Of a stretch of DNA of 64,000 bases, positions 14,469 to 17,009 are shown piece after piece. The notes below the pieces were generated by a model, which had not been told where the DNA came from, ran no database searches, and was given only the letters and a program-made list of their open reading frames with translations. Positions within the stretch are counted from its first letter, which is position 1. Every line of letters begins with the position of its first letter. A program made the translations under genes and the position numbers. The DNA is taken from contig NZ_JADOVI010000001.1 in NCBI RefSeq assembly GCF_015752155.1, positions 496,001 to 560,000 on the forward strand. Reading direction: 5' to 3'. The DNA is from Cryobacterium sp. MP_M3. Lineage in GTDB: Bacteria; Actinomycetota; Actinomycetes; Actinomycetales; Microbacteriaceae.

Positions 14469-14690
14469 ATGGCAAAAAAAGACGGTGTCATCGAAATCGA
14501 GGGCGCAGTAGTCGAAGCTCTTCCCAACGCGATGTTTCGTGTTGAGCTGACCAACGGCCACAAAGTTCTTGCCCACATTTCGGGCAAGATGCGTCAGCAC
14601 TACATCCGTATCCTCCCTGAGGACCGCGTGATCGTGGAGCTGAGCCCGTACGACCTGACTCGCGGCCGGATCGTCTACCGCTACAAGTAA
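14469..14690 (+). CDS. infA: Translation initiation factor IF-1
   Basis: A 73-residue OB-fold protein beginning [20 protein letters not shown] and ending [20 protein letters not shown], essentially the family consensus. IF-1 binds the A site of the 30S subunit during initiation. The ribosome binding site (AGTGAG) is weak. It is the first gene of the alpha-operon block here. Confidence 0.98.
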
Positions 14691-14756
14691 GCGTTGCTGT
14701 AAGTAACGGCCCGAGGCGTTCCTGGGGTACGAAGACAGCGAATACAAGGACACACA

Positions 14757-14870
14757 ATGAAGGTCAAGCCCAGCGTCAAGAAGATCTGCGACAAGTGCAA
14801 GGTCATCCGCCGTAACGGCAACGTGATGGTCATCTGCGAGAACCCGCGTCACAAGCAGCGTCAGGGCTGA
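14757..14870 (+). CDS. rpmJ: 50S ribosomal protein L36 (zinc-binding form)
   Basis: A 37-residue protein reading [20 protein letters not shown] and ending [11 protein letters not shown]. Cys11, Cys14, Cys27 and His32 form the zinc-ribbon ligands of the C+ type of L36. AAGGA lies seven bases before the ATG. It follows infA by 66 bases in the normal actinobacterial order. It is short enough to be missed by length-filtered gene finding. Confidence 0.96.
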
Positions 14871-14880
14871 TCTCGCCACG

Positions 14881-14904
14881 CTCGATCACCGCACTGGTGT
14901 CGAG
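14881..14904 (+). other. Hairpin after rpmJ
   Basis: CTCGA, a bulged T, then CACC (14881-14890) pair with GGTG and TCGAG (14896-14904) around a five-base loop. No T-run follows. It resembles the GATCGAG-type palindromes found elsewhere in the window and lies between rpmJ and the structured rpsM leader. It may be a processing site, a weak terminator or a repeat remnant. Confidence 0.4.
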
Positions 14905-14932
14905 CACGTCGAGACAAACTGAATACAGAAAA

Positions 14933-15022
14933 TAGCAATGCCGGGAACCCTTCGGGGCGACACCATCGGTTGGAGGCCGATGAACAGGCATTGCTACAGA
15001 CCTCCACTCATATACAGGAGAA
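14933..15022 (+). promoter_or_regulatory. Structured RNA leader of rpsM with possible pseudoknot
   Basis: A perfect 10-bp stem (TAGCAATGCC 14933-14942 with GGCATTGCTA 14987-14996) closes a junction holding two hairpins. One is CCC-TTCG-GGG at 14948-14957, with the very stable UUCG tetraloop. The other is CATCGG/CCGATG at 14964-14982 with loop TTGGAGG. The loop bases TGGAGG (14971-14976) are complementary to CCTCCA at 15001-15006, outside the junction. The same CCTCC could instead pair with GGAG of the ribosome binding site at 15017-15020. This offers two exclusive states, one hiding the rpsM ribosome binding site. In E. coli the equivalent position holds the S4-binding alpha-operon pseudoknot; this sequence does not visibly resemble it. 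Confidence 0.6.
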
Positions 15023-15028
15023 GCCACA

Positions 15029-15403
15029 ATGGCACGTCTAGCCGGCGTTGATATTCCTCGCGATAAGCGCGTGGAAGTTGCACTGACTTACATCTTTGGT
15101 GTTGGCCGTACGAGGGCACTCAAGACCCTCGCCGACACTGAAATCGATGGAAACATCCGAGTCAAGGATTTGAGTGACGACCAGCTCGTCGCCCTCCGTG
15201 ACTACATCGAAGGAACCTTCAAGGTTGAGGGTGACCTCCGCCGTGAGGTTGCCGCTGACATCCGCCGCAAGGTCGAGATCGGCAGCTACGAGGGCATCCG
15301 CCACCGCAAGGGCCTGCCCGTTCGCGGCCAGCGCACCAAGACCAACGCTCGCACCCGCAAGGGCCCGAAGCGCACCGTAGCCGGCAAGAAGAAGGCGCGC
15401 TAG
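15029..15403 (+). CDS. rpsM: 30S ribosomal protein S13
   Basis: A 124-residue protein beginning [20 protein letters not shown] and carrying the [20 protein letters not shown] tail typical of S13. S13 lies in the head of the 30S subunit and contacts tRNA and the 50S subunit. AGGAGAA at 15016-15022 is the ribosome binding site and is embedded next to the folded leader described at 14933-15022. Confidence 0.97.
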
Positions 15404-15447: not shown

Positions 15448-15846
15448 ATGGCAGCACCAAAGTCGGCCGTTCGGAAGCCGCGCAAGAAAGAAAAGAAGAA
15501 CATCGCTGTGGGCCAGGCCCACATCAAGAGCACGTTCAACAACACCATCGTCTCGATCACCGACACCACCGGTGCGGTCATCAGCTGGGCGTCCTCAGGT
15601 GGAGTCGGCTTCAAGGGTTCGCGCAAGTCGACCCCGTTCGCCGCACAGCTGGCAGCCGAGTCGGCCGCCCGCCAGGCGCAGGAGCACGGCATGAAGAAGG
15701 TAGACGTCTTCGTCAAGGGCCCCGGCTCCGGACGCGAGACGGCGATCCGTTCGCTTCAGGCCGCGGGCCTCGAGGTCGGTTCGATCAACGATGTGACGCC
15801 CCAGGCTCACAACGGATGCCGTCCGCCCAAGCGTCGCCGGGTCTAA
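15448..15846 (+). CDS. rpsK: 30S ribosomal protein S11
   Basis: A 132-residue protein with the S11 core [20 protein letters not shown] and the conserved end [18 protein letters not shown]. It lines the mRNA exit path on the platform of the 30S subunit. A CAGGAG ribosome binding site precedes the ATG. In many bacteria rpsD follows; here rpoA is next, separated by 173 bases containing two strong hairpins. Confidence 0.97.
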
Positions 15847-16019: not shown

Positions 16020-17009
16020 GTGCTTATCGCACAGCGCCCCACGCTCACCGAAGAGAACATCTCGGAGTTCCGATCCAGGTTCGTCATCGAACCTCTCGAG
16101 CCTGGTTTCGGTTACACCCTCGGCAACTCGATGCGCCGCACCCTGCTGTCCTCGATCCCCGGAGCCGCTGTCACCAGCATCCGGATCGACGGTGTGCTGC
16201 ACGAGTTCAGCACCGTTCCCGGTGTCAAGGAAGATGTCACCGAGATCATCCTGAACATCAAGGGTCTCGTCATCTCCAGCGAGCACGACGAGCCGATCAC
16301 CGCGTACCTGCGCAAGCAGGGCTCCGGCCAGGTCACCGCCGCTGACATCTCGGCTCCGGCCGGGGTCGAGGTGCACAACCCCGAGCTGGTCATCGCCACG
16401 CTGAACGACAAGGCGAAGTTCGAACTCGAACTGACCATCGAGCGTGGCCGTGGCTACGTGTCGGCCACCCAGAACCGCAACGAGTACTCAGAGGCCGGCC
16501 AGATCCCGGTCGACTCGATCTACTCGCCCGTGCTCAAGGTGACCTACCGCGTCGAGGCAACTCGTGCCGGTGAGCGTACCGACTTCGACCGCCTCGTCGT
16601 CGACGTGGAGACCAAGTCGGCGATTTCGCCTCGTGACGCCATCGCATCCGCCGGTCGCACGCTGACCGAGCTGTTCGGTCTGGCCCGCGAGCTGAACACC
16701 GCCGCTGAGGGCATCGAAATCGGCCCCGCGCCGGTCGACGCCGTGCTGTCGACCGAGCTGTCGATTCCGATCGAAGACCTCGATCTGTCGGTTCGTTCGT
16801 ACAACTGCCTCAAGCGTGAAGGCATCAACAACGTCAGCGAACTGGTCGCCCTCTCGGAGACCCAGCTGATGAACATCCGCAACTTCGGTCAGAAGTCGGT
16901 GGATGAGGTCAAGGACAAGCTCGTAGAGCTGGGCCTGTCGCTCAAGGACTCGGTGCCCGGATTCGACGGCGCCCACTTCTACAGCGGCTACGACGAAGAA
17001 ACCATCTAA
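16020..17009 (+). CDS. rpoA: DNA-directed RNA polymerase subunit alpha
   Basis: A 329-residue protein. The N-terminal assembly domain includes [20 protein letters not shown] and [20 protein letters not shown]. The C-terminal domain that binds UP elements and activators includes [20 protein letters not shown]. The GTG start at 16020 follows AAAGGAA and gives the usual actinobacterial N-terminus [12 protein letters not shown]. The 47 bases before rplQ contain no obvious terminator, so the two are probably cotranscribed. Confidence 0.98.

Follow-up and report, generated by a model that had tools for sequence, protein, structure and literature searches.

A putative ribosomal-protein leader with a conserved pseudoknot in front of the rpsM operon of Actinomycetes

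Introduction

In Escherichia coli, the pseudoknot of the alpha-operon mRNA takes in the initiation region itself. 'Entrapment' of the ribosome has been described for this mRNA (PMC10931766). In the sections consulted, the survey by Eckert and Weinberg (2020; PMC7247131) gives rpsM leaders only for Clostridia and Fusobacteriales, and its Table 1 holds no actinobacterial one. The 5'UTR pseudoknot of the rpsO mRNA of Mycobacterium smegmatis is strictly required for regulation by S15, and the same 2021 paper states that there is almost no information on ribosomal-protein-mediated regulation in Actinobacteria (PMC8470358). A Streptomyces ambofaciens paper names rpsM, in the part consulted, only as the target of an antisense RNA. 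No motif of the kind reported here is present in the examined parts of the 2010 set of 104 motifs and of the 2019 genome-wide set. A leader before rpsM in Actinobacteria is likewise not described in literature titles and abstracts among the matches listed, a scope that excludes subscription papers and supplements.

The window analysed here is a stretch of 64,000 nucleotides from Cryobacterium sp. MP_M3 (Microbacteriaceae) in which the rpsM operon is preceded by a folded RNA leader. This element appears to be undescribed so far, with a structure of its own within the known kind of ribosomal-protein leaders (r-leaders).

Materials and Methods

The family sample was drawn from the rpsM loci of 199 Microbacteriaceae genomes (194 with a match) and consisted of 30 loci and 40 fetched stretches, while the named rpsM loci are the 80 top-ranking ones among at least 588 relatives. 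The phylum sample, from 296 genomes (293 with a match), comprised 29 new loci and 40 fetched stretches. Class-wide counts refer to 185 loci, a number that leaves out two MAG records lacking the leader (L084, L107) as well as every locus with no label beyond 'same phylum'. Of the 185, four repeat another upstream region, which leaves 181 distinct regions, and loci L280-L290 were counted separately. For the layout around rpsD, 46 of the 185 loci were too short and one was not readable. The rpsD sample held 30 loci, four of them also containing rpsM. The 55 rpsD loci searched with the family model R1 were made up of 25 without rpsM nearby (18 of the window's genus) and 30 not sorted by nearby rpsM.

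A geometric detector scored the P2 hairpin and the pseudoknot. It seeks pairing, with the strand confined to a range of 18-42 nt upstream of the start codon, and its matches and spacing are biased accordingly. Its null was formed by 573 dinucleotide shuffles (median 24, 99% at 33, maximum 35). Shuffles, swapped loops and the alignment A1 served as controls. A1 was made with MAFFT blind to base pairs, yet built from detector-cut stretches; its 62 rows were chosen by hand from 97 loci surviving filters for length, score and redundancy, 30 other-lineage rows and five rows with a misplaced P1 being excluded before counting, and they include row L051, named only Actinomycetota. A2, also made with MAFFT, holds 15 family rows and 27 other rows. 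In an R-scape-like test, substitutions were moved randomly along a tree of the rpsM coding DNA, with 200 nulls and 2775 column pairs.

Results

Genomic context and predicted fold

The gene order in the window is infA, rpmJ, rpsM, rpsK, rpoA, rplQ (NCBIfam names), with the leader in the 158-nt gap between rpmJ and rpsM. On the + strand, open reading frames supported by NCBIfam models were assigned to rpmJ (L36; 14757..14870), the upstream neighbour, and to rpsM (S13; 15029..15403, TIGR03631), rpsK (S11; 15448..15846), rpoA (16020..17009) and rplQ (L17; 17057..17587). The rpsD gene of the same genome lies on a different contig (G000:C19), in agreement with an earlier reading of the sequence by itself (hereafter the sequence-only reading), which had noted that rpsD is missing from the operon, here ordered rpsM-rpsK-rpoA-rplQ. 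Simple scans of 14600-15100 revealed neither a terminator-like nor a sigma-70-like site. The lack of a terminator-like site in this region favours control at the level of translation, and transcription attenuation was therefore rejected.

In the predicted fold, a closing stem (P1) encloses a variable hairpin (P1a) and a second hairpin (P2), the loop of which pairs with a strand just 3' of P1; all elements lie on the + strand. P1 is formed by TAGCAATGCC (14933-14942) and GGCATTGCTA (14987-14996), which pair perfectly in the window. Both strands were assigned from sequence inspection and covariation, the 3' strand also from RNAalifold run on A1 without guidance. P1a (CCC-TTCG-GGG, 14948..14957; sequence and single-sequence fold) is a UUCG-capped hairpin inside P1, and its length and sequence vary among relatives. 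P2 (14964..14982; sequence, fold and covariation) consists of the arms CATCGG (14964-14969) and CCGATG (14977-14982) and the loop TTGGAGG (14970-14976), that is, a T followed by TGGAGG. This TGGAGG (14971..14976) is the first strand of the pseudoknot. The second, CCTCCA (15001..15006), begins 28 nt before the start codon and ends 22 nt upstream of the rpsM ATG at 15029; both strands are supported by sequence and covariation. The Shine-Dalgarno (SD) sequence of rpsM, AGGAG, was located by sequence at 15016..15020, with the GGAG of the ribosome binding site at 15017-15020. A check of the sequence confirmed each of these positions for the stems, the UUCG hairpin, the P2 loop, CCTCCA and the ribosome binding site, as the sequence-only reading had given them.

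The minimum-energy fold of the window leader contains the same stems (-45.5 kcal/mol, z -2.71). Since 2 of 200 dinucleotide shuffles are equally stable, the leader of the window is only moderately unusual when taken alone. The reality of the predicted fold is settled by comparative evidence and not by the energy of a single sequence.

Covariation within the family and across the class

Standard pairs make up 92.0% of 1281 cells in A1 (62 sequences), compared with 76.3% in column shuffles, and shifting the partner by 1-3 columns lowers pairing to 35-45%. Both sides have changed in 16 of the 21 pairs; the 193 double-change cells compare with 57.6 in shuffles, and 0 of 500 shuffles reach the observed number. 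Among the 62 relatives, all nine counted pairs of P1 show double changes. The outermost P1 pair and the sixth pseudoknot pair are poorly kept (unpaired in 32 of 50 and 26 of 61 cells, respectively). From A1 alone, RNAalifold recovers P1, P2 and two P1a pairs with double changes, which occur in 14 of the 16 pairs it predicts. Under the tree-based null, five of the 21 structure pairs in the family have E<0.05 and two more lie at 0.07-0.08, with zero significant pairs among the other column pairs of the 2775 tested. The single pairs of the knot are all above 0.05 in this test (best E 0.36), and the knot columns hardly vary within the family.

The class-wide alignments were cut by the pairing-seeking detector and thus lean towards pairing, which applies to the following counts from the 181 distinct upstream regions. 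Three of the six P2 pairs reach E<0.05 in the tree test, no single knot pair is significant (best E 0.10 and 0.14), and neither is any column pair outside the structure. Taken as a whole helix, the knot scores 334.6 against a null maximum of 146.5 (300 nulls). By parsimony, 37 events (8+12+10+6+1+0) changed both sides of a knot pair and kept the pairing, against a null mean of 4.2 and a maximum of 12. In A2, where MAFFT shifted one P2 arm, paired cells amount to 71.8% in P2 and 98.8% in the pseudoknot.

Loops differing from NGGAGG, found in 30 of the 181 regions, were matched to the stretch from 38 to 17 nt before the start codon of their own locus. The best Watson-Crick match was six of six in 20 of them, five in seven and four in three. 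When loops were swapped among the same 30 loci, six matches were obtained in 1.3% and five in 20.4% of cases, and the common loop CGGAGG placed on these loci gave six matches in none and five in 17. The 185 loci contain 31 loop/strand combinations, for example CGCAGG/CCTGCG and CGTAGG/CCTACG. The pseudoknot is clearly what selection keeps. By shuffles, tree-based null and helix test alike, compensatory changes in the stems are plentiful across relatives, bearing out a fold that had been drawn from one sequence.

Distribution among Actinomycetes

The detector score for P2 and pseudoknot is at least 34 at 173 of the 185 Actinomycetes-type loci; the other 12 score 28-33, which is inside the shuffle range and not individually significant. 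None of 36 loci from elsewhere in the phylum exceeds 30, and the gap between rpmJ and rpsM is shorter than 50 nt in 28 of these. The same operon is preceded by the leader in named loci of Mycobacterium, Nocardia, Micromonospora, Glycomyces, Bifidobacterium, Cellulomonas, Arthrobacter, Microbacterium and Curtobacterium, and by a divergent form of it in Nocardioides. The parts that recur in the named loci are an AC before P2, a P2 of 6 bp, a loop ending in a mostly G-rich hexamer, and a complementary hexamer after P1. With P2 and the knot recurring across the class, the element is not limited to Microbacteriaceae.

Model R1 has one match per genome in 55 of 60 whole family genomes and two matches in one (second contig). 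The four genomes without a match are G010 and G013, where the leader is nonetheless present with AGAAGG/CCTTCT knots, G015 (0.9 Mb), where it is absent, and G038, which is without any rpsM match. The R1 match ends 19-25 nt before rpsM in 50 of the 50 family genomes that could be checked by eye (six others were not checkable), a consistent position before one ribosomal-protein operon. Outside the family R1 is weak. Searched in 74 sources, it gives 34 matches with E no higher than 1, of which 17 are in other lineages and only two of those (L104, L059) have E<0.01. As R1 hardly recognises other lineages, the unity of the element across the class rests on the geometric detector.

Among the separately counted loci L280-L290, 10 of 11 score 34-39. 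The remaining one, L290 from G015, the smallest family genome examined (0.9 Mb), lacks the leader, its rpmJ-rpsM gap being 37 nt, and other small family genomes (1.3-1.7 Mb; L281, L282, L284, L287-L289) have kept the leader with changed knots. L084, a MAG named Geodermatophilaceae that has an rpmJ-rpsM gap of only 56 nt and lacks the leader, is a possible exception in the class, and the MAG record L107 has a 3-nt gap and no leader. In Nocardioides (L098, L100, L105, L108, L110), an additional stretch, CAACGTGATCGCT or near it, lies upstream of P2 and the knot is changed; in several of these leaders a clear P1 was not seen.

The motif CAACT[GC][AC]A was also observed upstream of P2, in 59 of the 173 leader loci as opposed to 1.4% of shuffles. 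It ends 40-110 nt (median 49) before P2, for instance in L010, L045 and L060, and the window contains a near match, CAAACTGAATAC (14915-14926). It is possibly part of a promoter, a processing site or an RNA contact.

Comparison with RNA families

In Rfam 15, which may lag behind print, the only match of the window leader was Alpha_RBS (RF00140) with 21.3 bits against a threshold of 38. Of these, 16.9 bits stem from the SD and coding sequence alone (15007-15061), and 14881-15028 by itself matched neither Alpha_RBS nor any other Rfam family. Membership in Alpha_RBS was rejected on both grounds, the score below threshold and its origin mostly in the SD and coding part. When leaders from 12 loci of other lineages were compared with Rfam at E up to 0.5, two matches to miRNA models appeared, both in L052 and far below threshold. 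No family thus reaches its threshold, and the leader is unlike any Rfam 15 family.

The upstream region of rpsD

A search for the same motif before rpsD was negative: R1 finds nothing at E<1 in 55 rpsD loci, the one match having an E of 8.7. Detector scores before rpsD are 20-33 at 26 loci without rpsM nearby and 24-30 at four in-operon loci, all within the shuffle range, from windows that are rough in that some starts were misplaced (an upstream TTG was taken). Instead, a different conserved element was observed in Microbacteriaceae, inside the roughly 190-230 nt that precede rpsD (L250-L279; in the window's own genome L173:1307-1491, before rpsD at G000:C19:31467). It consists of GUGCGGCUGCG, a hairpin around CUGUAGCCG, and then CCGUGGC and CCCUCU. 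TAGCC[AG] is found upstream of rpsD in 24 of 30 family loci, a raw count with no shuffle baseline. None of six rpsD loci tested has an Rfam match. The element is possibly a separate S4 leader.

Discussion

The leader combines a conserved structure and compensatory changes with a position upstream of ribosomal-protein genes, the hallmarks of the r-leader class. According to our analysis, it very probably acts in cis as a ribosomal-protein leader of the rpsM operon that is conserved across Actinomycetes, has no Rfam 15 family and represses when bound by its protein. The sequence-only reading had proposed an actinobacterial autoregulatory RNA for S13, S11 or S4; the part that stands plainly is a structured rpsM leader with a real pseudoknot, unlike the families of Rfam. 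As an r-leader it is a probable means by which a ribosomal protein represses its own genes.

The 3' knot strand begins at a median of 28 nt from the start codon (5-95% 25-32, range 21-35; 173 loci, searched within 18-42), and the distance from P2 to this strand varies from 16 to 110 nt in the same loci. The fixed spacing on one side and the free distance on the other suggest that the knot acts on translation initiation of rpsM. We posit that S4, S13 or S11, each encoded by or tied to the operon, would bind the leader when in excess over rRNA and steady its pseudoknotted form. The steadied knot might then keep the 30S subunit off the ribosome binding site of rpsM or trap it there, and the downstream genes would follow via translational coupling or message decay. 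Once rRNA has taken up all of the protein, the knot would open easily and rpsM could be translated. We infer the steadying of the knot by a protein from where the element lies and from two precedents, the E. coli alpha mRNA with S4 and the mycobacterial rpsO mRNA with S15.

Most of the known r-leader ligands bind rRNA early, unlike S13 and S11, which counts against the products of the two genes after the leader as its ligand; we know of no proven S13 or S11 leader. Nonetheless, rpsM and rpsK follow the leader in 139 of 139 class loci long enough to reach rpsK, and Microbacteriaceae have a separate element at rpsD. Regulation by S13, S11 or both is in our view a serious possibility that falls somewhat short of being probable. 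The other candidate is S4, which would parallel the E. coli alpha operon; on this view the leader would have arisen with rpsD in the operon and been kept after rpsD moved. In E. coli, S4 has been proven to regulate the rpsM operon (PMC10931766), it is also predicted to bind the rpsM leaders of Clostridia and Fusobacteriales (Table 1 of PMC7247131), and rpsD follows rpsK in 44 of 138 loci with a readable layout. Scores of at least 34 are reached at 41 of these 44 and, against S4, also at 92 of the 94 loci without rpsD after rpsK. This retention, the lack of R1 matches at E<1 in 55 rpsD loci and the separate rpsD element weaken S4 as the ligand, and we regard it as possible but less likely than not. 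Overall, the choice between S4 and S13 or S11 is about even. It is tempting to combine these points into a class-wide regulator of the alpha operon with S13 or S11 as its ligand, which would be the first r-leader known for either protein, beside a separate and undescribed S4 leader at solo rpsD, and we put this forward tentatively. If true, the alpha operon would have been rewired in the class, with rpoA downstream of an S13/S11 sensor.

The sequence-only reading had also described two mutually exclusive folds; in such a switch, CCTCC would pair with the P2 loop in one state and with the SD sequence in the other. Both pairings can form in the window (CTCC 15002-15005 with GGAG 15017-15020 on the SD side), and runs of at least four pairs with the SD side, G-U included, occur at 135 of 173 loci compared with 24% in shuffles of the same loci. 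The two states are not equally well kept. At the 27 loci with a changed 3' strand, SD-side runs of at least four persist in 15 and have disappeared in 12; loop pairing of at least five persists in 26 and has disappeared in one. Both CCTCC and AGGAG may be conserved for other reasons. Sequestration of the SD sequence was therefore rejected as the main conserved fold, and a two-state switch seems unlikely; SD pairing might exist as a secondary state beside the better-kept knot.

A folded standby or stability element without a protein ligand, serving for example ribosome loading or protection from RNase, would also suit the narrow distance to the start codon. Yet a pseudoknot of varying sequence with kept pairing, present once per genome and before the rpsM operon wherever this could be checked, is typical of an r-leader, and we consider such an element quite improbable. 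A leader peptide or a chance fold is hardly credible: an ORF (14938-15051) does overlap the leader, but its ATG, which falls within P1, is not conserved among relatives (L004, for example, has GCAGTTCC there), the length changes of P1a are not always multiples of three, and the covariation counts against both, that in A1 and under the tree-based null rejecting a chance fold.

The element is a strongly supported RNA preceding an operon with rpoA among its genes, in a class to which mycobacteria and bifidobacteria belong. Should it bind S13 or S11, r-leaders would gain a new ligand; should it bind S4, a single protein would have yet another, unrelated RNA at this same operon.

Among described systems, the leader resembles the S4-binding Alpha_RBS (RF00140) of E. 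coli in the same operon start, a pseudoknot and probable translational control. In contrast to Alpha_RBS, the definition of which has a knot taking in the initiation region, the actinomycete knot stops about 22 nt short of the start codon and comes with a closing stem of its own, P1; the Alpha_RBS threshold is also missed, and the sequence-only reading, too, had noted that the fold looks different from that of the E. coli alpha leader. The predicted r-leaders for S4 in Clostridia and Fusobacteriales likewise precede an rpsM-rpsK-rpsD-rpoA-rplQ operon (Eckert and Weinberg, 2020, in the sections consulted), but they belong to other lineages, and their motifs were compared as far as Rfam 15 holds them. 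With the mycobacterial rpsO leader for S15 the element shares a pseudoknot upstream of the start codon of an actinobacterial ribosomal-protein mRNA and, as described for rpsO, repression of translation (PMC8470358, PMC10931766); gene and protein are different, and the likeness is one of description.
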